A stretch of 32,477 nucleotides of DNA from contig CALFPI010000160.1 in NCBI GenBank assembly GCA_937919035.1, positions 1 through 32,477 on the forward strand, in the 5' to 3' direction. A model generated the notes under the pieces. It ran no database searches and was not told where the DNA came from. It saw only the letters and a list, made by a program, of their open reading frames with translations. This document shows, in pieces, positions 21,307 to 32,338 of the stretch. A program made the translations under genes and the position numbers. Each line of letters opens with the position of its first letter. The first letter of the stretch is position 1. The stretch is from an uncultured Gemmatimonadaceae bacterium (lineage in GTDB: Bacteria > Latescibacterota > UBA2968 > UBA8231).

Positions 21307-22170
21307 TCAGGAAATGTCGACGCCGCAGTCGCTGGCGATGCGGCGGATGTTGGCTGCCGCAACCGGCACCTTGTCCGGCGACAGATGCTCGATCAGACCG
21401 TAGCCGCGCGGAAACAGGGCGTCGAAGCGCTGCAGCATCAGCGCCAGGTCGAGTTCACCCTCTCCCGGAACCTCCTGGTCGATGTGGACCACCAGCCCGG
21501 GTGACACCTTCACGTCCTTGAGGTGCGCCACCGGGGCCAGGGGCCCCATCGTATCGAAGATGTAGTTGAGGAACTCGGTGCTGTGATAAACGGCCTGGAT
21601 GCTGCTGAAGTGATTGACGGCATCCATGATGAGTCGCAGGTGATCGGAGCCCACAGCGGCGACGATGTCCCTGCATACCTCCGGTGGATCCATGATGGAG
21701 ACGACGTGGGTCTCCAGCGCCAGAATCACGCCTTCGGTCTCCGCCTTTGCGGCGATCGGCTGCAGTGTTTCCACGAGCAGATCACGGCTTTCGGGCAGAT
21801 GATTGTCGCGGTGCGGCGACCACGAACCTGCGGGGCTGCGCGAACCGGGGCGCAGCAGGAAAGCCTGCGCCCCGAGGGCGCCGGCGATCTCCGTACCCCG
21901 GTTGATTTTGCGCGTCACCAGGGCGCGCTCTTCGGCGTCGGGTGCGAAGAGGCACTCCTTGTAGAGGATGGCGAACTGCGCCAGGTCAAGATCTTCATCG
22001 ACCATGAACTGGCGGCAGCGCCGGCAGTCCTCGGGGGTCACGTCAAAGGCCATGTCGCCGTCGAGGTGGAAACCGAAGCCAGTGAAGCCCAGGTCGCGCA
22101 CAGCCTGGGTGTGGGCCGGCGTCCACGTGCGGAAATCTCCCGGCATCATCTCGACGATTCCCAGCCGCAT
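21307..22170 (-). CDS. Sugar phosphate isomerase/epimerase (TIM barrel)
   Basis: VRDLGFTGFGFHLDG, GVILALETHVVSIMDPPEVCRDIVAAVGSDHLRLIMDAVNHF, VAHLKDVKVSPGLVVHIDQEVPGEGELDLALMLQ. Start at MRLGIVEMMPG. Confidence 0.85.
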   Translation of the reverse strand: MRLGIVEMMPGDFRTWTPAHTQAVRDLGFTGFGFHLDGDMAFDVTPEDCRRCRQFMVDEDLDLAQFAILYKECLFAPDAEERALVTRKINRGTEIAGALGAQAFLLRPGSRSPAGSWSPHRDNHLPESRDLLVETLQPIAAKAETEGVILALETHVVSIMDPPEVCRDIVAAVGSDHLRLIMDAVNHFSSIQAVYHSTEFLNYIFDTMGPLAPVAHLKDVKVSPGLVVHIDQEVPGEGELDLALMLQRFDALFPRGYGLIEHLSPDKVPVAAANIRRIASDCGVDIS

Positions 22171-22171
22171 G

Positions 22172-23302
22172 TCAGTGGACCTCGACGATCTCCGCAACAG
22201 CAGCCACGAGGGCATCGATCTCGGCGTCTGTGGTGAAAAACGACACCGACGCACGCACACCGGAAAACTTCAACCCCGTGGGCCGTGTAATGATCCTGCG
22301 GGTCCGCAGTTCGCTCGAGATGTGTGCACCTTCAACGCCGTCCACACGGAACGACACGACACCGGTACACATGGCCGGGTCTGCCGGGTTCTCAATGACG
22401 AGACCCGGAATCGACGCCAGTTCTTTACGGAAACGGACTGCTTTGGGGCTGACGCAGGCTTCGATATTGGCGATACCAAGCTCTGACAGATAATCCGTCG
22501 CTGCCGCGCTGGCGTGGTAGTAGGGCGGCGGCACGGTGGAAAACTCGAAGCGTCGCGCCCCCTCACTGCCGAAGTAGTTGGCGCTGGATGGCACGACGCG
22601 CAAACGTTCCTGCCAGGCCTTGTCGACATACAGAGCCCCCGCCGTGTACGGACCGTACATCCACTTGTACACGAGCAGGCTGTAGAAATCGGCCCCCAGA
22701 TCGGCGACATCGACGGGGAATTGCCCGAGCGACTGGGCCCCGTCGTAGACCACCGGTACATCGTGGGCGTGGGCCAGTTCAACGATCTGCTTGGCCGGCA
22801 GTTTCGTGCCGGTGTCCGTTGTCACGTGACTCAGCGCCAGCAGTCGCGTCCGTGGTGTCAGGCAATCATCGAGGCGCTGCAGAATGTCTGCGTCCGTGCC
22901 ATCGATGGGCAGATACTTGATCTCCACACCGTGGGTCAGCGCCAGCCATTCGGCCGGGATCTTTACCGCCGGGTGTTCCTCGTCGGTAAGGATGAGTTCA
23001 TCGCCGGTGTGCCAGTCGAAACCATTGAACACCGTCGTCACGCCATCGGCGACGCCATGGGTCAGGCACAGATCCCGCGCCTCCACGCCACAGAAGGTGG
23101 CCAGCCGATGCCGCGCATCCTGCAGTTGGGCGCTGTATCGGGCGTAGTCCATGATGAGCGGCGGCCCATGCTGGGCGATGCTGCGGAACTCTTCCACCAG
23201 AGAGTTGGTGACGACATCATGGCTCGGGGCAATCCCACCGGTGTTGAAGTAGAGGCACTCGCCGGTGGCGGGGATCTGGGCTCGAATCTTGTCGATGTCC
23301 AT
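22172..23302 (-). CDS. Class V aminotransferase-fold PLP-dependent enzyme
   Basis: LYFNTGGIAPSHDVV, DEHPAVKIPAEWLA, LALSHVTTDTGTKLPAKQIVELAHAHDVPVVYDGAQSLGQFPVDVADLGADFYSLLVYKWMYGPYTAGALYV (PLP lysine region). Confidence 0.92.
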   Translation of the reverse strand: MDIDKIRAQIPATGECLYFNTGGIAPSHDVVTNSLVEEFRSIAQHGPPLIMDYARYSAQLQDARHRLATFCGVEARDLCLTHGVADGVTTVFNGFDWHTGDELILTDEEHPAVKIPAEWLALTHGVEIKYLPIDGTDADILQRLDDCLTPRTRLLALSHVTTDTGTKLPAKQIVELAHAHDVPVVYDGAQSLGQFPVDVADLGADFYSLLVYKWMYGPYTAGALYVDKAWQERLRVVPSSANYFGSEGARRFEFSTVPPPYYHASAAATDYLSELGIANIEACVSPKAVRFRKELASIPGLVIENPADPAMCTGVVSFRVDGVEGAHISSELRTRRIITRPTGLKFSGVRASVSFFTTDAEIDALVAAVAEIVEVH

Positions 23303-23307
23303 TGGTT

Positions 23308-25080
23308 TCAGTCAACGCTTTCCAGGCCCATGTTGGCCCGTCCCTGGGAAGTAACTCGCGCCGCCGTCCACGCCGGCTCCCAGGTGAAGTGAATGACGAC
23401 ATCGCGAATGCCGTCGATCTGTCGCAGTCGGTTGCTCAGGGGCGTGTGGGGCGTCGGTCCGGGGCGATGAATGAAGCCATGTCGCGGACGACCCTTGTGC
23501 GGCATGGTCAGCGTAATGTGAGCGACATCCTCTTCGAGGTGCACATCGTAGATATATCCCATGTCGACGACGTTGGCATCGTTGGCGTAGAACATGGCAT
23601 CTTTCGTTTCCCGCATCGCCTCCCAGATCGCGCGTTTCAACGGCCCGCCTTCGCTGTCCATCTCACCAAGTCGTGCCAATCGTCCCGGATTCTCTGTGGC
23701 GGCGGCGGTGGGCTTGCCACCCGGGGATACCTGCACGGGTTGCAGCAGGCGCCTGCGGGTCTCTTCCACCGGCCCGGCGCCCGCGTACGGGGCGATGAGA
23801 AAGGCGCTCTCCTGCGTCAGCACAGCACCGGCGCCGATCTTGTTGTCACCTGCCGGATACCGCGCCCAGACCTGCCCGTGGCCGTCATAGTCGAAAGGTT
23901 TGCCCGTCGATACCAGGTGATCGTAGCCCTCGGCGGCATGGGCCAGGCGCAGAGCGATGAAGGCATCCTTGCTGCCGCCGTGGAAGAAACCGACACCATG
24001 CAGATCCTGCAGATGTTGCTCGGGAATCTCCCCCTCGTGCAGCTTGCCCTGATTGTCGATCCAGACGGTGCCGTTGAAAGAGTAGCCGGAGAAGACCCAC
24101 TCGTCGTCGCGAATGGTGTACTCGCCATCGGCAAGAATGTCCATGCGGCCATTCTTGAAGAAGTAGGGCAGTCCGGCGTAGAAAGTGTAGGTCACGTCGA
24201 TGTGCAGACGGCTCGGGGTATAGAGCGGGTGCCCCGGACTGTGGGGGAACCCCCAGCGTCGCACCTGCACGCACAGCGGCCCCCGGACGACTTCGTAGTT
24301 CGGACACTCGGCCCAGTTCGTCACGCGCACCTTGTGCAGTCTGCCTTCCGGCACGTAGTCATGGGCCCAGTCGATGTTTGGTGGCTCGCCGTGGCCTTCG
24401 CCGCCGGCGAACAAGGTCAGGCCGTGGTCCCGCTTGTATGTGAGACGCTCCATCTGCCCCATCTGCCGCGACAGGTTCGCCACGTAGTGATCGTTCTCGA
24501 TGTCGAGACCCCAGCCTTCGCCGGTGACGCTGAGATCCGTCGTGTAGCATGGCAACTCGGCCAGATCGTTGCCGTAGAACACGAGGACCGTGGCACCGCT
24601 GTTGGCCTCCATGTCCACGGCAAAGACGAGACGACAGTGGCGCTCGCCGCGTTCACAGGACTCATCGTATACCTGGCTGACGGTCTGCCGCAGTCGACCT
24701 GCGGCATCAACGATGGCGACGCGGACTTCGCGGCGCAGATCCGTCGTCTCTGACTCAGCAAATGCGACGGCGATGTTGACCGGTTCACGGGTGCGCGCCA
24801 GACCGGCTGCCTCGTGCAGTTCCAGCACCTTGCACCACGACCAGCCGGTGGCCCAGGTGCGCCAGGCGTCGGGCAGATCCCTGGTGGACAGTGCCTCGTC
24901 GGCACCGCTGAGAGGCACGCCCTCCGGCAGACTGCGCTGCTTCTCGTACTGCAGGGTATCCTTCATCGATTCCAGCAGCGACATGGCCAGATCCCGGCGA
25001 CCATTGCTGTAGGCTTGCTGCAGGAGGCGCAACTTCACCTCAATGCTGTCACTGCGCGTGGCGTAGGGGGGCTGTGTCAT
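23308..25080 (-). CDS. 590-aa protein: large uncharacterised beta-rich N-terminal region plus C-terminal MIP18/DUF59-like domain
   Basis: C-terminal ~112 aa (LKRAIWEAMRETKDAMFYANDANVVDMGYIYDVHLEEDVAHITLTMPHKG...LRQIDGIRDVVIHFTWEPAWTAARVTSQGRANMGLE) follow the DUF59/MIP18 pattern. N-terminal region lacks a family I can name with confidence. Confidence 0.7.
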   Translation of the reverse strand: MTQPPYATRSDSIEVKLRLLQQAYSNGRRDLAMSLLESMKDTLQYEKQRSLPEGVPLSGADEALSTRDLPDAWRTWATGWSWCKVLELHEAAGLARTREPVNIAVAFAESETTDLRREVRVAIVDAAGRLRQTVSQVYDESCERGERHCRLVFAVDMEANSGATVLVFYGNDLAELPCYTTDLSVTGEGWGLDIENDHYVANLSRQMGQMERLTYKRDHGLTLFAGGEGHGEPPNIDWAHDYVPEGRLHKVRVTNWAECPNYEVVRGPLCVQVRRWGFPHSPGHPLYTPSRLHIDVTYTFYAGLPYFFKNGRMDILADGEYTIRDDEWVFSGYSFNGTVWIDNQGKLHEGEIPEQHLQDLHGVGFFHGGSKDAFIALRLAHAAEGYDHLVSTGKPFDYDGHGQVWARYPAGDNKIGAGAVLTQESAFLIAPYAGAGPVEETRRRLLQPVQVSPGGKPTAAATENPGRLARLGEMDSEGGPLKRAIWEAMRETKDAMFYANDANVVDMGYIYDVHLEEDVAHITLTMPHKGRPRHGFIHRPGPTPHTPLSNRLRQIDGIRDVVIHFTWEPAWTAARVTSQGRANMGLESVD

Positions 25081-25142: not shown

Positions 25143-26225
25143 TCAGCGGGGGAGCTGGTTGCGCAGCGCTTTCAGGTCATTGTCGGTCACACCAGCCGGT
25201 ACATCGATGGGGCGCCCCTCCCGTGACGCACGCAGGAAGAACCCGGTATCGTTGTGCAGCGAAATCTGGTGGCCGAGTTTGGCCGACTTCAGGGCGGCGA
25301 AAATCATCCACATCACGGGCAGCGCCGTCTCCAGGCGACACTCGTGTACCTTGTGGGCGTCATCGAGCCAGGCGCCGACAGCGGCGGTGAAGTCACGCTG
25401 TCCGGGGTGCTCCTGCTCGAAGTAGTCCGCCGGGGCGTCGAAGACCTCAGCCTCGCCGCGCACCTGGTATCCCCACCGGCCCTTCTGCTGGGCCCAGATG
25501 ACACCGTTCGTGCAATGGATATCGAGGTCCAGATGCATCCAGTAGGTGGCCCCACTACGGTTGCCGAGGCCACGCGGTGAGCACTCCCAGAATACTCGCC
25601 GGTTGCCAGGGAACCAGTAGGTGGCCTGCACATGGCTTGGGGCGGCATGGGTCCATTCGTAACCCTCCAGGCCTTCGGCGCTGGCCCACACAGCTTCCGG
25701 CCACGGATCGTCCAGAACCATCATGACCAGATCCATCAGGTGTGGTCCCATGGCCAGCGGCCCACCCCAGGTACTGGCGCGGGCGAAGTCGACTTCGCCG
25801 AGTTTGCCGGAGCGGATCAGGTCACGGATTGCGGCGTACTGCGGAAAGTAACGTCGCTGGGTATTAACGATGACCTTGCAGCCCGTCTCCCGACAGATCT
25901 CAGCGATCTCGAGCGCCTCCATCGGCCACAGGGACAGGGGCTTCTCGACAATGATCGCCCGGACACCGGCGTCGGCAGCGGCACGGATCCCGGCGAGACG
26001 GTAGTCCGGCTGGGTGACCATGTGCAGAACATCGATCTGCCCCTTGTCGAGCATGTCGTGCAGGTCTCCGTAGCGCGCCGGCACACCGTGTTTGCTGGCA
26101 AAGGCATCCCGTCGCTCGGCGTCGAGGTCACAGCAGGCGACAAGATCCATAGCGGCGATGTCAGGATACACGGCGGCATGGTTGTTGGCCCGGGGGCCAC
26201 ATCCGAGAATGGCTGACCGAAACAT
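25143..26225 (-). CDS. Gfo/Idh/MocA family oxidoreductase
   Basis: FRSAILGCGPRANNHAAVYPDIAAMDLVACCDLD, AIIVEKPLSL (EKP motif), Rossmann N-terminus. Confidence 0.92.
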   Translation of the reverse strand: MFRSAILGCGPRANNHAAVYPDIAAMDLVACCDLDAERRDAFASKHGVPARYGDLHDMLDKGQIDVLHMVTQPDYRLAGIRAAADAGVRAIIVEKPLSLWPMEALEIAEICRETGCKVIVNTQRRYFPQYAAIRDLIRSGKLGEVDFARASTWGGPLAMGPHLMDLVMMVLDDPWPEAVWASAEGLEGYEWTHAAPSHVQATYWFPGNRRVFWECSPRGLGNRSGATYWMHLDLDIHCTNGVIWAQQKGRWGYQVRGEAEVFDAPADYFEQEHPGQRDFTAAVGAWLDDAHKVHECRLETALPVMWMIFAALKSAKLGHQISLHNDTGFFLRASREGRPIDVPAGVTDNDLKALRNQLPR

Positions 26226-26258
26226 GGGATCGTCTCCTGAATTTGGTTGGGCCTGTGG

Positions 26259-27329
26259 TCAGAGTGTGGCGCCACCGCGAGTCTCCCCAGGGCGGCCGTG
26301 GATGTCGCGCAGGCGGATGCGTTTCTCCTGGGCGGAAGAGGCATAGGCGGCAAGGGACGCCTCCATGACCCGCAGACCATCGAGCCCGGTCTGTGGCGGC
26401 GGGGCCCCTGTCTGTGCCGCTTCGACCCAGGCCCGCGTCATGGCGCCCATGGCGACATCCCACGAGTCGGCCAGTTGGTACTCCACGACGTCGGCACCGA
26501 GGGAGGGGGCCCCCCACACGCGCAGGCTCGCCTGCGGGCGCCAGCAGAACATCATGCCGCCCTCCGAGCCATAGACGTTGAGGTCGAGACGCGAGCGCGC
26601 CCCCGATGAGATGCCATCGGAGTGTATGAGCAGCGTCGCCCCGTCCTCCATGACATAGTGGGCGACACCGTAATCCTCATTGAGCCAGTCCTTGTGACGC
26701 AGATTGCGCATGTCGGCCATGACCTCGGCCACTTCTGTACCCCAGATCCAGCGGGTGAAGTCGATGGCGTGATCGGCGTGTGTGAACCAGGCCCCACCAG
26801 GTGAGGCGGCCGGATCCGTCCACCAGCTCAGCAGGGACTTGTCCTCTTCGGTCCTCGAGGGCACACCTGTGGGATAGCCGCAGTAGATATGGTGTGGCTC
26901 GCCGAGCTCGCCGGAATCCCAGATCTGCTTCATCAGTTGAAAAGACTTCCAGTAGCGGAAGTTGTAGCCGCTCATCAGACATACGCCGGCAGCGGCACAG
27001 GCATCGATCATACGCTGGCAGTCGGCGACGGACATGGCCATGGGTTTGTCGGCCAGCACATGTTTGCCGGCACCGGCAAGCGCCTCGGCAACGTTGGCGC
27101 GCTCCGACGTGCGCACCGTGAGGATACCGCCGTCGATATCGGAGGCGACGAATTCGGCCAGATCTGTGTATCCCGGAGCGCCGGTGTGCTGCACGAGGCG
27201 TGCCAGATCTTCCGGGTCCTCATCCCATACGGCAGCGATGGTGCAGAAATCCGCGTCCTTCAACACGCGGATGAAGGCGAGGGTGTGGGGCCACAGATCG
27301 TAGCCGGCGATACCGATACGAAACTTCAT
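26259..27329 (-). CDS. Gfo/Idh/MocA family oxidoreductase
   Basis: FRIGIAGYDLWPHTLAFIRVLKDADFCTIAAVWDED, GKHVLADKPMAMSVADCQRMID, C-terminal substrate domain with GGAWFTHADHAIDFTRWIWG. Confidence 0.92.
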   Translation of the reverse strand: MKFRIGIAGYDLWPHTLAFIRVLKDADFCTIAAVWDEDPEDLARLVQHTGAPGYTDLAEFVASDIDGGILTVRTSERANVAEALAGAGKHVLADKPMAMSVADCQRMIDACAAAGVCLMSGYNFRYWKSFQLMKQIWDSGELGEPHHIYCGYPTGVPSRTEEDKSLLSWWTDPAASPGGAWFTHADHAIDFTRWIWGTEVAEVMADMRNLRHKDWLNEDYGVAHYVMEDGATLLIHSDGISSGARSRLDLNVYGSEGGMMFCWRPQASLRVWGAPSLGADVVEYQLADSWDVAMGAMTRAWVEAAQTGAPPPQTGLDGLRVMEASLAAYASSAQEKRIRLRDIHGRPGETRGGATL

Positions 27330-28390
27330 GCGGCGATCTCCTTGAGCGCCACGCGGCGACCGCTGTGTACGGAGAGTTCGATAGCTTCCTGCAGGCGAAC
27401 GGACTCGATGCCGTCCTGCAGGGTCGAGGCAGGTGCGTGGTTGCCGGCAACGCTGGTGACGAAATCGCGCAGTTCGCCGACAAAGCCATGCAGATTCAGA
27501 CTGTTGGCGGCATCCGTGGGCTGGATGTCTTCCGGTTCCCAGTAGCGCATCTCATCCTCACCGGCGATAAAGGCAATGACGCGGCGCCAGTTCTCCACGT
27601 GCAGGCTGCTGCCGACGCCGGAGATGCTGAGCCTCTCGCTCCAGTTGGTGAAACTCGACTCGAGACAGTTGATGTTGAGCAGTCCGAGAGCACCCGAGCA
27701 GAACCGCAGGGTGATGGCGTAACCGTCGAGCCCTTCGCCACGAGACACGCGCTCCGCCGATACCGTGTCGACATCCCCCATGAAGAAGCGTGGCAGGTCG
27801 AGATGATGAATGCCGAAGCCATTGAGAAAGTTGTAGACGTCGACGGGGTAGCGGGCGTACGTGAAGCGCGCCTCGTACATGCTCGGTGCCCCGAAGGCGG
27901 GCAGCGCCATGATCTGCCGGGCTCGCAGATACGGCGCCGAGAAGCGCTTCATGAAAGCCACAGCGACCTGTTTGCCATTGCGCGCAGCCGCGTCCCGGAT
28001 GCGCAGGGACTCGGCGACACTTTCGGCCTGTGGCTTCTCCAGAAACACGTGCACGCCGGCATTGAGGCAGGCAATGGCCACATCCGGCTGCAGTCGTGGG
28101 TGCAGGCAGACGATGACGCAGTCGAGGTCCTCGTGGGCGAGCATGTCCTCATGGTTGGCGTAGACCCGCTGGATGCCGTGCACGGCGGCGATGCGCTTGG
28201 CGTGGTCGGCCTTGTGCTCGGCAAGCGCCACGAGTTCCCCCAGCAGCGGCGGCAGTTGCGCGCCAGCGTGTGTCGCCACCAGGGCGGGCAGGCCTTCAGG
28301 GGCCCCCCCGAGAGCGTGGCGCAGGCTGGGCAACAGGCTCATGCGGGCGTGCTCCCCACCACCAACGAAGCCGACTCGCATGGGGGTCAT
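27326..28390 (-). CDS. Gfo/Idh/MocA family oxidoreductase
   Basis: MRVGFVGGGEHARMSLLPSLRHA, GVHVFLEKPQAESVAESLRIRDAA. Start at MTPMRVGFVGGG (28390), ATGA overlap with the E2 stop; ATGA overlap with the next gene. Confidence 0.92.
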   Translation of the reverse strand: MTPMRVGFVGGGEHARMSLLPSLRHALGGAPEGLPALVATHAGAQLPPLLGELVALAEHKADHAKRIAAVHGIQRVYANHEDMLAHEDLDCVIVCLHPRLQPDVAIACLNAGVHVFLEKPQAESVAESLRIRDAAARNGKQVAVAFMKRFSAPYLRARQIMALPAFGAPSMYEARFTYARYPVDVYNFLNGFGIHHLDLPRFFMGDVDTVSAERVSRGEGLDGYAITLRFCSGALGLLNINCLESSFTNWSERLSISGVGSSLHVENWRRVIAFIAGEDEMRYWEPEDIQPTDAANSLNLHGFVGELRDFVTSVAGNHAPASTLQDGIESVRLQEAIELSVHSGRRVALKEIAA

Positions 28391-29547
28391 GACAGGTCCG
28401 GCGACTCCACGAGCTGCCGCAGCGTCGCCAGGAAACGAGCCGCAGGGCCGCCGTCGATGATCCGATGGTCGAAACTCAGGCTGACAACCGTGAGCCAGCG
28501 GGGCACCACCTGTCCCTCGTACACCGCCGGTCGCTGGGAAATGCGGCCGATGCCGAGGATGGCGCACTGGGGCGGATTGATGATGGGCGTAAAGGCATCG
28601 ATGCCGGCGGCGCCCAGATTGGTGATGGTGAAGGTGCCGCCGCGCATGTCGTCCCCTGTGAGTTGGCCGCGCAGTGCCTGACCTCCAAGGCGAGCGCTGT
28701 CGCGGGCGATCTCGGCGATGCTCTTGCGATTGGCATCACGGACGACGGGAACGAGCAAACCCGCTTCGGTGTCGACAGCGAAACCGATGTGGATGCTCTC
28801 GTGCAGCAGAATGTCATGGCCCTGAAGAGAACTGTTGAGTGCCGGATGCCCTTCGAGGGCGACAGCGGCGAAGCGGATCAGAAAATCGTTGTACGCCGGG
28901 CGCGGTCGGGTGGCCCTGCGCAGTTCCACCAGGGCGGTGACGTCGTATTCCGCCGTCAGGGTAACCGGTGCCGAATCACGATGGCTGCCAACGAGGCGGG
29001 TCGCAATGGCCAGACGTGTCGGATTCATGGGCACGCGCTCGACGGTGGTATCGATGTCACCCACGGAGGCCGCCGCAGCACGGACATCCTCCTCCGTGAC
29101 CCGTCCCGTGCTGCCCGTGCCGGCGAGTCGCTCCCAATCGACGCCGAGATCCTTTGCCAGTCGGCGCGCCCGCGGGCTGATCGATGGCTTGCTGCCAACG
29201 GCCTCCCTGGATATCGCTGGCGCCGCTGGCGCTGATGGGCCTGCCGAATCCTGTGCTGTGGCTCGCTCGGGCGGTGGCGGTACCAGCGCCGGACCGACTT
29301 CCCCAGCGGCCAGCACATACGCCAGTACCGTACCCACAGGCACGGTAGCGCCGGGCGCTGGCGCATTGCCGGGAATGTGCAGCGTGCCGCTGTCGAAGGC
29401 TTCGATCTCGTTGAGGGCCTTGTCACTTTCCACCGTGAACAGGATGTCGCCGACCTGCACCGGGTCGCCGGAGGCCTTCAGCCACTCCACCAGAGTGCCC
29501 TCTTCCATCGTCCAGCCCAGCCGTGGCATAACAACGTCGAAAGCCAT
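28387..29547 (-). CDS. 2-oxo acid dehydrogenase E2 component (dihydrolipoamide acyltransferase)
   Basis: Lipoyl domain (MPRLGWTMEEGTLVEWLKASGDPVQVGDILFTVESDKALNEIEAF), E3-binding domain (ISPRARRLAKDLGVDWERLAGTGSTGRVTEEDV), catalytic LSFDHRIIDGGPAARFL. Confidence 0.96.
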   Translation of the reverse strand: MAFDVVMPRLGWTMEEGTLVEWLKASGDPVQVGDILFTVESDKALNEIEAFDSGTLHIPGNAPAPGATVPVGTVLAYVLAAGEVGPALVPPPPERATAQDSAGPSAPAAPAISREAVGSKPSISPRARRLAKDLGVDWERLAGTGSTGRVTEEDVRAAAASVGDIDTTVERVPMNPTRLAIATRLVGSHRDSAPVTLTAEYDVTALVELRRATRPRPAYNDFLIRFAAVALEGHPALNSSLQGHDILLHESIHIGFAVDTEAGLLVPVVRDANRKSIAEIARDSARLGGQALRGQLTGDDMRGGTFTITNLGAAGIDAFTPIINPPQCAILGIGRISQRPAVYEGQVVPRWLTVVSLSFDHRIIDGGPAARFLATLRQLVESPDLS

Positions 29548-29554
29548 GGCGGTG

Positions 29555-30538
29555 CTATTCGGCAGCCAGGTCACGCACGGCGGCGGCAACCTGGTCCATG
29601 GAGGGCACGACAGCAGCCTCCAGCGGTGGGCTGTAGGGCGTCGGTGTGTGTACGCCATTGAGTCGGCGCACGGGCGCCGCCAGATCGTCAAATCCCTGCG
29701 CCATCACCTGCGCGGCGATCTCGGCGCCGACACCACATGGTCCGAAGGATTCATCGGCGACAAGAAGTCTGCCCGTCTTGCGCACCGACGTCAGAATCGT
29801 GTCCAGATCGAGGGGGGCCAGTGTGCGTGGATCGATGACCTCCACGGAGATCCCCTCGGCGGCGAGGGTGTCACAGGCGGCAAGGCTCTTGGGCACAAGA
29901 GGGCCGATGGCGACGACGGTCACCGTTGTTCCCTGGCGGCAGACCTGGGCCTGCCCGAAGGGAATCTGGTACTCCTCTTCCGGCACCGGACCTCGGACAT
30001 TGAGCAGTGACTTGTGCTCGAGGAACAACACCGGATCATCACTGCGCAGAGCCGTCGACATGAGACCCTTGGCATCGTATGGCGTGGTTGGCACGACGAC
30101 GCGAAATCCCGGCACATTGAGAAATAACGGATAGTAGCTGCCCGAGTGATGTGTCGCCGCACCACCACCGATCCCCACGCAGCCACGCAGTAGCACCGGC
30201 ATCTTCAATCGGCCACCGCTCATGTACTGAATCTTGGCGATCTGGTTGGTGAGTTCACCCACAGAGTCGAGGATGAAGTCGATGAACATGAAGTCGACGA
30301 CAGGCCGTGTGCCGGTCATGGCTGCACCGGTGCACAGGCCGACGAAGCCACGTTCACAGATGGGGGTATCACGCAGTCGCCGCGGCCCGAAGCGCTCGTA
30401 GAGTCCCAGTGTCGTGTTGAAATTGCCGCCACGTTCGCCGATGCCCTCACCGAGGACAAAGATGGTCGGATCCCGTTCCATCGCCGCCGTCAACGCCTCG
30501 CGCGCCGCTTCCGTGTAGCTGATCTCGCGCTCGCTCAT
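29555..30538 (-). CDS. 2-oxo acid dehydrogenase E1 component, beta subunit
   Basis: ISYTEAAREALTAAMERDPTIFVLGEGIGERGGNFNTTLGLYERFGPRRLRDTPICERGFVGLCTGAAMTGTRPVVDFMF. Start at MSEREISY (30538), ATGA overlap with the E1alpha stop. Confidence 0.96.
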   Translation of the reverse strand: MSEREISYTEAAREALTAAMERDPTIFVLGEGIGERGGNFNTTLGLYERFGPRRLRDTPICERGFVGLCTGAAMTGTRPVVDFMFIDFILDSVGELTNQIAKIQYMSGGRLKMPVLLRGCVGIGGGAATHHSGSYYPLFLNVPGFRVVVPTTPYDAKGLMSTALRSDDPVLFLEHKSLLNVRGPVPEEEYQIPFGQAQVCRQGTTVTVVAIGPLVPKSLAACDTLAAEGISVEVIDPRTLAPLDLDTILTSVRKTGRLLVADESFGPCGVGAEIAAQVMAQGFDDLAAPVRRLNGVHTPTPYSPPLEAAVVPSMDQVAAAVRDLAAE

Positions 30539-31521
30539 GAGGCAACCCCCCCGTAGATATGGTCGGCAACGGTCGCCGGATCCGGCCATGGGCTGTCGGT
30601 GGCGAAGGCCACGGCCTCCGTTATCTCGGCGACGATGGCGTCGTCGATGGTCTGCAGGTCGGCAGCCGTGACAGCCCCGTCGTCGACGACCCTTCGGGAG
30701 AAGGCGGTGATCGGATCGCGCGCCTTCCAGCTGTCGATCTCCTGCTGGGAGCGATAGCCACCGTCACGCATGCCCTCGGCGTGGGGCCGGGTGCGGTACG
30801 TGCGGCACTCGATGAGGGACGGCCCACCGCCCTGACGAGCCCGCGCCACCGCCGCACTTGCCGCCTCGTACACGGCGACAACATCATTGCCATCCACAGC
30901 CTCCGCGTGCAGACCGTAACCGGCGGCGCGCCCGGCCACATCGGTATTGCGTGCCGAGTCTTTGAAGGCGACCTCAGTGGCGTACATGTTGTTCTCGCAG
31001 ACGAACAGCACCGGCAGGTCCCAGATCGTGGCCATGTTGAGCCCTTCGTGGAAGGCGCCATTGCTGACGGCGCCATCACCGAAAAAAGCGACACCCACCT
31101 GGTCCGTTTCCTTCAACTGGAAGGAGTAGCCGGCGCCCGTGGCCTGCAGAATGCAGGGACCGACGATGCCACTCGTACCCATCATGCCGACTTCAGGGGA
31201 GAACAGGTGCATACTGCCGCCACGACCGCCGGAGCAGCCCGTTGCACGGCCAAAGAGTTCGGCCACCAGTTCGCGAGGGGGCACGCCCTTGGCCAGGGCA
31301 TGCCCGTGACCGCGATGGGTGCTGAACACGGCGTCATCGTCGCGCAGGTGCGCACAGACCCCGGTGGCGACGGCCTCCTCGCCCACATACGTGTGGCAGG
31401 CGCCGGTGATCGTACCTGCCGCGTAGGAACGGGCCAGTTGCTCCTCGCAACGCCGGATACGGACCATGGTGCGATACAGTGATAACAATGTGTCCTTGGG
31501 AATCGTCATTGTTTCCTTCAT
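30535..31521 (-). CDS. 2-oxo acid dehydrogenase E1 component, alpha subunit
   Basis: TPP-binding GDGAVSNGAFHEGLNMATIWDLPVLFVCENN; GRATGCSGGRGGSMHLFSPEVGMMGTSGIVG. Start ambiguous (31521 MKETM or 31509 MTIPK). Confidence 0.95.
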   Translation of the reverse strand: MKETMTIPKDTLLSLYRTMVRIRRCEEQLARSYAAGTITGACHTYVGEEAVATGVCAHLRDDDAVFSTHRGHGHALAKGVPPRELVAELFGRATGCSGGRGGSMHLFSPEVGMMGTSGIVGPCILQATGAGYSFQLKETDQVGVAFFGDGAVSNGAFHEGLNMATIWDLPVLFVCENNMYATEVAFKDSARNTDVAGRAAGYGLHAEAVDGNDVVAVYEAASAAVARARQGGGPSLIECRTYRTRPHAEGMRDGGYRSQQEIDSWKARDPITAFSRRVVDDGAVTAADLQTIDDAIVAEITEAVAFATDSPWPDPATVADHIYGGVAS

Positions 31522-31522
31522 C

Positions 31523-32338
31523 TCAGCCTGTGATCCCGGGACCACCGGGGTAGGAACCGCCGGCGTTCATCGCCAGGTTGCCGCCGTCCATGGGCAGCAG
31601 AATGCCCGTCACCCAGCGGGCCGCGTCGGATGCCAGAAAGATGGCCACCCCCCGGACATCGTCGGGCTCGCCGAGCCGACCCGTGGGGATACCCCGCAGC
31701 CACTGCGTCTCCATACGCGGATCCTTGTCGATGCGGGCGCGCAGACCCGGGTTCATCACCTGCGCCAGGACGATGGCGTTGACCCTGACGCCACGGCTGG
31801 CCCACTCTGTGCTCAACTCACGGGTCATCTGCACAACACCGCCCATGGCTGTGCTGTAGGCGGCGTGACCACGGCCCAGGGCTGTGAGTCCCGCCAGCGA
31901 CGCGATGTTGATGATGCTGCCTTTGCCGGCAGCCAGCATGCGTCGCCCTGCCTCCTGGCAACAGCAGAAGCGTCCCACCACGAGGCCCTGCAGGGAGCGG
32001 GTGACCTCGTCGATGTCGATATCTTCCGGTGGCCCGAGCGCAACACTGCCACCGGCGACGTTGGCGAGCACATCGATACGACCGAACTCGCTGTCGAGGC
32101 GCTCGAACATGGGCCGAATCTGTGCCGGGTCGGAGACGTCGCATTTTACCGCGATGGCGCGCCGACCCAGGGCCTCGACATCAGCGGCGGTCTGTTGGGC
32201 GCCGGCTTCGTTCAGATCGGCCAGCATGAGGTCGGCGCCGGCTTCGGCCAGGGCCAGGCTGATCGCCCTGCCGACACCTTGGGCGGCACCAGAGACCAGG
32301 GCAACACGCCCGGTCAGATCGAAGAGTTCATGGATCAT
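31523..32338 (-). CDS. SDR family oxidoreductase
   Basis: GRVALVSGAAQGVGRAISLALAEAGADLMLADLN, NVAGG, GHAAYSTAMGGVVQMTRELSTEWASRGVRVNAI (GxxxG plus YSTAM region), C-terminal ASDAARWVTGILLPMDGG. Confidence 0.94.
   Translation of the reverse strand: MIHELFDLTGRVALVSGAAQGVGRAISLALAEAGADLMLADLNEAGAQQTAADVEALGRRAIAVKCDVSDPAQIRPMFERLDSEFGRIDVLANVAGGSVALGPPEDIDIDEVTRSLQGLVVGRFCCCQEAGRRMLAAGKGSIINIASLAGLTALGRGHAAYSTAMGGVVQMTRELSTEWASRGVRVNAIVLAQVMNPGLRARIDKDPRMETQWLRGIPTGRLGEPDDVRGVAIFLASDAARWVTGILLPMDGGNLAMNAGGSYPGGPGITG

Follow-up and report, generated by a model that had tools for sequence, protein, structure and literature searches.

DUF59 is a small module known as a helper in iron-sulfur cluster assembly. 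The SufT/DUF59/MIP18 proteins (PF01883, TIGR02945; solved examples 2CU6, 1UWD and 3LNO) come closest to the domain described here, and for real SufT an association with suf genes is frequent, not universal. PaaD (NF041868, TIGR02159) is a DUF59 protein of a catabolic operon, and in Mrp/ApbC/HCF101 (8ZKC) a DUF59-like domain lies N-terminal to a bigger partner, which is a P-loop NTPase. PaaD is not known to occur fused to a supersandwich, nor are the DUF4861/galactose-mutarotase-like supersandwich proteins known to contain a DUF59 domain. The cysteine of SufT was present in 761 of 761 homologues surveyed, and the function of the DUF59 domain is stated to be unknown in the same paper (PMC4982691). 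In SufT the residues D, E and T form a pocket together with the hyper-reactive cysteine, the protein homodimerises, and the C62A variant of the M. tuberculosis protein neither homodimerised nor bound SufS or SufU any longer (PMC9045647).

The protein analysed here joins a DUF59 domain to a large supersandwich protein, an architecture that is absent from the DUF59 architectures listed in PMC4982691. No description of such a fusion was found in the literature searched, outside which most subscription journals fall, and nothing on DUF4861 (PF16153) was found in that same literature. Judged by title and abstract, none of the papers on DUF59 with carbohydrate and fusion appears to describe it. The DUF59 domain as such is already known; here it is fused to the supersandwich and carries an invariant Cys-to-Arg replacement.

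Domain organization of the fused protein

The window, which is the whole stretch of 32,477 nucleotides that was analysed, carries the fused gene on its reverse strand with the following features:

23308..25080 (-): 590-aa fused protein with N-terminal helices, beta-sandwich, mutarotase-like supersandwich and C-terminal DUF59 (ORF with ATG start; family conservation)
24931..25068 (-): N-terminal helices, residues 5-50, in the long subfamily A only (AlphaFold2 secondary structure, pLDDT; alignment)
24511..24843 (-): first beta-sandwich, residues ~80-190 (AlphaFold2 model; border drawn by eye)
23716..24510 (-): beta-supersandwich like those of galactose mutarotase, the GH38 C-terminal half and PL26, residues ~191-455 (Foldseek against PDB; border by eye from the model)
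23320..23646 (-): cysteine-free DUF59/MIP18 domain, residues ~479-587 (profiles, structure comparison, alignment)
23485..23505 (-): loop motif MPHKGRP, residues 526-532, where the canonical sequence is T-x-x-G-C-P (alignments)
23488..23490 (-): codon of Arg531 at the conserved-cysteine position of DUF59 (gap-free alignment to 2CU6; homologue comparison)

Residues 479-587 are a true DUF59/MIP18 domain, with a significant profile match and a MIP18-like alpha/beta fold. In the profile search the best-scoring DUF59 model was NF041868 (PaaD), which matches residues ~479-587 at E=1.3e-11, with 44.7 bits against an equivalog cut-off of 180, followed by TIGR02945 (SUF_assoc) at E=8e-8 and TIGR02159 at E=5e-4. 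PF01883 stays sub-threshold for this protein (E=0.037 with the full-length sequence, 0.0036 with the domain by itself; Pfam cut-off 23.5 bits), so that a check by Pfam alone would miss the domain; the same model matches 32 of the 37 members of the fused family at E<=1, the best at 2.4e-9. A profile built from the fused family finds the solved DUF59 proteins 2CU6, 1UWD, 3LNO and 5IRD with E values of 9e-17 to 9e-9, and the DUF59 domain by itself reaches 5e-17. Folded alone, the domain is predicted with a pLDDT of 81, and its model superposes on 3CQ2 with a TMt of 0.86 at 1.9 A (0.72-0.86 and 1.9-3.1 A over 3CQ2, 2CU6 and 3LNO); the top eight to nine structure matches are all DUF59 entries. The earlier note had assigned the domain by reading motifs, and profiles, predicted structure, superposition and homologues all bear this out, with the reservation that PF01883 falls below its cut-off where the NCBIfam PaaD and SUF models and the family profile do match. 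With SufT the domain shares the fold, an end-to-end match over ~100 residues, the V-[VD]-x-G start of a strand and the C-terminal P-x-W...R...G pattern. Unlike SufT, it sits at the C-terminus of a large protein and has no suf neighbourhood. The sequence match to the Mrp/ApbC/HCF101 group is weak (E=0.9).

The full-length AlphaFold2 model, made from a 37-row alignment, has a pLDDT of 83.5 and a pTM of 0.88. When it was compared with the PDB by Foldseek, the matches were the C-terminal half of GH38 mannosidase, PL26 exo-rhamnogalacturonan lyase, LacZ and galactose mutarotases, all of which contain a galactose-mutarotase-like supersandwich; the E values to GH38, PL26 and GalM were 2e-9 to 4e-6, with modest TM-scores of 0.3-0.5. 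On this model the large domain is predicted to be a galactose-mutarotase-like supersandwich, and the fusion to a beta-rich protein of ~480 aa described before is confirmed and conserved in homologues. The N-terminal ~380 residues share their fold with GalM, the GH38 C-terminal half and PL26, but the identity to the solved proteins is only 8-12%. One paralogue, L022, passes the Pfam model for DUF4861 (PF16153) narrowly (22.5 bits against a cut-off of 22.3, over 96 residues) in the region corresponding to the first beta-sandwich (residues ~80-190); for the window protein, Pfam gives no DUF4861 match. The polar residues R96, E118, R120, H230, D241, R275, Y298, R324 and E327 are near-invariant in the family, which makes an enzymatic pocket in the predicted N-domain plausible, and W340 and W405 are conserved alongside R324, E327 and Y298. 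From the modelled fold, the N-domain would handle carbohydrate enzymatically; mutarotase-like folds are also found in non-catalytic roles.

Replacement of the conserved cysteine and loss of the pocket

All six cysteines of the window protein lie at or before residue 270, and the DUF59 domain has none. The loop 'PHRGRP' aligns without gaps to 'TTPGCP' of 2CU6, turning GCP into GRP, and this pairing places Arg531 at the family cysteine position. The P, G and R of the loop motif are invariant, and the strictly conserved cysteine of SufT is absent, in 33 of 33 aligned fused rows; arginine occupies the position in all 40 distinct fused proteins compared. The same column holds a cysteine in all 30 (29 distinct) DUF59 domains of other architectures that were compared from the same phyla, and the window's own genome also has a stand-alone, Cys-bearing DUF59 with the loop 'SPACP' on contig C301. 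Moreover, the remainder of the D-P-E and Thr pocket known from SufT is absent from the fused family in the alignment: DPE is replaced (e.g. by DEMFY, EDQFN or NEFELY) and accompanied by an insertion of 3 residues in subfamily A and ~10 in subfamily B, and the second pocket Thr is lost, MTLT becoming MTMP in subfamily A and IVMP in subfamily B.

The cysteine loss claimed in the earlier note is therefore real, and both it and the fusion are conserved across the homologues. The reading of the loop needs one refinement, since the general motif of the family is P[HY]xGR, and the long stretch after the arginine in the window protein (GFIHRPGPTPHTP) is owed to an insertion of few members. This insertion, RHGFIHRPGPTPHTPL, at 23437-23484 (residues 533-548), follows Arg531, is also present in a 96%-identical relative and is modelled with low confidence; in the paralogue L021/L050 another sequence is inserted there. 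A DUF59-like domain without the cysteine is not unique, as the solved ApbC 8ZKC reads 'VELVMPFVWHSAF' at this place, and 8ZKC is nevertheless named an iron-sulfur carrier, so that the loss of the cysteine alone leaves room for an Fe-S link.

The domain has been inherited together with its partner. Identities of the N-domain and of DUF59 run parallel (r=0.95 over 528 pairs, which are non-independent; means 0.47 and 0.45). In the comparison with L026, which is 96% identical, the whole protein has a dN/dS of 0.12. The N part stands at 0.15 (23 non-synonymous and 46 synonymous codons) and DUF59 at 0.02 (1 non-synonymous and 14 synonymous codons), a difference between the parts that is borderline (Fisher p=0.056). 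Judging from these substitutions, the DUF59 domain is clearly under purifying selection and not decaying.

Distribution and origin of the fused family

The fused proteins form a family that has no name so far, with members in Latescibacterota, Poribacteria, Chloroflexota and Planctomycetota; the records of close relatives with the same architecture are labelled Poribacteria, Planctomycetota, Chloroflexi, Gemmatimonadota and Latescibacteria. The window's genome and the Latescibacteria chromosome OX638377 have a family in common (the G050 and L011 copies being identical in sequence), so that its phylum is probably Latescibacterota. Of 64 genomes from this phylum, 24 gave a match. Among the 251, 246 and 85 genomes of the phyla of the Chloroflexota, Planctomycetota and Poribacteria seeds, respectively, the fusion is sparse, and the remaining strong DUF59 matches read in these searches are of the Cys type. 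No relatives were found in viral contigs, and the plasmid collection gave only ordinary stand-alone DUF59/PaaD of haloarchaea.

Two subfamilies, ~30% identical and both with the Arg-type DUF59, can be told apart: subfamily A is long, with N-terminal helices and the loop PHxGRP, and subfamily B has ~530 aa and the loop PYAGR. A third group (L045-L048) consists of the N-domain without DUF59. The ~339-residue N-terminal extension of L049 looks like a spurious frame and was rejected as a domain. In a tree of 70 rows and 102 columns, a single branch (SH-aLRT 92) separates all Arg-type rows from the others, and L111 is Cys-type. As far as sampled, this supports, and does not prove, a single capture and fusion event.

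One apparent counter-example to the fusion was considered and rejected. In the Chloroflexota locus L128 (8952-9290, +), only the Arg-type DUF59 part is found, with the N-domain absent, next to a gene of the cluster-2 family described below. This fragment (L098/L128) shares only ~50% identity with its relatives, against 81-84% for the neighbour gene, and no longer has the P-x-W motif; it is thus probably a decaying remnant.

The window's genome holds four fused copies. In one of the paralogues (L021:1468-3408, -, on contig C758), a signal-peptide-like stretch (MKSTRLLLTLFLLMTVMTEARSA) lies in frame upstream. An alternative in-frame Met start matches the relatives, which makes the signal peptide ambiguous; if it is real, the DUF59 domain of this copy would be exported.

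Genetic neighbourhood

The fused gene lies within a run of genes on the same strand, in the order SDR, E1-alpha, E1-beta, E2, three Gfo/Idh/MocA genes, fused gene, class-V PLP enzyme and AP_endonuc_2:

28387..32338 (-): SDR dehydrogenase and 2-oxoacid dehydrogenase E1-alpha, E1-beta and E2, start of the run
25143..28567 (-): three Gfo/Idh/MocA oxidoreductase genes directly upstream of the fused gene
22172..23302 (-): class-V PLP aminotransferase with SufS-like fold, 5 bases downstream of the fused gene
21307..22260 (-): AP_endonuc_2/xylose-isomerase-like TIM-barrel, whose true start is probably later, as the call overlaps its neighbour

In the relative L067 the core gene order is preserved, and the Chloroflexota locus L006 has Gfo/Idh/MocA and class-V enzyme genes near the fusion. 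The loci of other members bring in UxuA, PhyH-type oxygenases and proteins of the enolase superfamily that lie closest to sugar-acid dehydratases, and a solute-binding protein is also among the neighbours. The setting of the fused gene is thus sugar and sugar-acid catabolism, not Fe-S, in agreement with the catabolic operon proposed before. Neither the neighbours on the same strand nor the genes sampled near homologues include any recognised suf or Fe-S gene, and no phenylacetyl-CoA epoxidase genes were recognised in the window. A link to Fe-S assembly through the SufS-like neighbour was considered and rejected, because this enzyme scores far below all desulfurase equivalog cut-offs and its last 60 residues contain no Cys, and so it gives no signal of such assembly.

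A further unnamed family of ~430-460 aa, here called cluster 2, recurs beside the fused protein in 10 of 43 loci (e.g. L131:10546-11856, +; L006:9796-11190, +; L081:7579-8952, +; and L068:979-5043, +, with three tandem copies). It has the strong motif FPKHYFWHRGFDGxYGTVxR and no significant match in Pfam, NCBIfam or PDB; by eye it looks like an uncharacterised TIM-barrel glycosidase.

Possible role of the captured domain

We consider it rather probable that the fused protein is carbohydrate-active and that its captured DUF59 serves as a structural or substrate-binding module and no longer as an Fe-S factor. The supersandwich protein would act inside the cell, probably on a sugar or oligosaccharide, possibly an acidic one. 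Its C-terminal domain descends from the Fe-S accessory DUF59; after capture by fusion it would have given up the Fe-S pocket (DPE, the second Thr and Cys), with P-[HY]-x-G-R becoming fixed instead. Since the characteristic cysteine and the neighbouring pocket residues are replaced, the domain has probably been given a new job, most likely structural or substrate-binding, with the conserved Arg loop facing an anionic ligand or the neighbouring domain; the arginine may accordingly bind a ligand or pack on the N-domain. From its residues, the domain would no longer serve Fe-S assembly. The repurposing suggested in the earlier note is to this extent supported, namely as a departure from the known Fe-S role, by the missing D-P-E, T and C, the lack of recognised Fe-S genes nearby and the normal Cys-bearing DUF59 elsewhere.

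The strongest competitor, which we regard as appreciably less likely, holds that DUF59 is a pure scaffold for dimerisation or for stabilising the supersandwich, and that the Arg loop is a structural salt bridge and binds no ligand. The pTM of the full model points to domains packed in a fixed arrangement, the N-domain-only group indicates that the main part can stand alone, and SufT itself forms homodimers (PMC9045647). The invariance of P[HY]xGR across subfamilies of ~30% identity is, however, more than a scaffold normally needs, and the loss of SufT homodimerisation on changing Cys to Ala implies that a Cys-less form may not use that interface (PMC9045647). More speculative, and in our view improbable, is that these proteins are a new family of carbohydrate-active enzymes whose active site is complete only with the Arg-type DUF59, where the arginine (and the His/Tyr) would bind an acidic sugar group.

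There is little to recommend the idea that DUF59 still does Fe-S or metal work and, with no need for the Cys, supplies its own N-domain or a neighbouring enzyme with a cofactor. It could draw on PaaD as the best profile, on the Cys-less DUF59-like domain of ApbC and on the adjacent SufS-fold PLP enzyme. Against it, D-P-E, the second T and C have all changed, no Fe-S protein is recognised around the gene, and the SufS-like neighbour, besides its sub-cut-off scores and lack of a C-terminal Cys, is found near the family only in the window lineage and one Chloroflexota locus. Finally, that the C-terminal resemblance is due to chance or to a generic beta-alpha-beta fold, as the sub-threshold PF01883 score might suggest, is ruled out for practical purposes by several independent DUF59 profiles, by the PDB profile matches and by the leading structure matches, all of them DUF59.

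If the arginine does complete an active site, an Fe-S assembly domain would have been turned into part of the catalytic centre of a sugar enzyme. The family offers a DUF59 fold whose presumed active residues are gone and which is maintained under strong selection in a different context, and it thereby separates the role of the fold from the role of the cysteine. It also draws attention to an unannotated family, predicted to be carbohydrate-active, whose partners recur and which occurs in Latescibacterota, Poribacteria, Chloroflexota and Planctomycetota.
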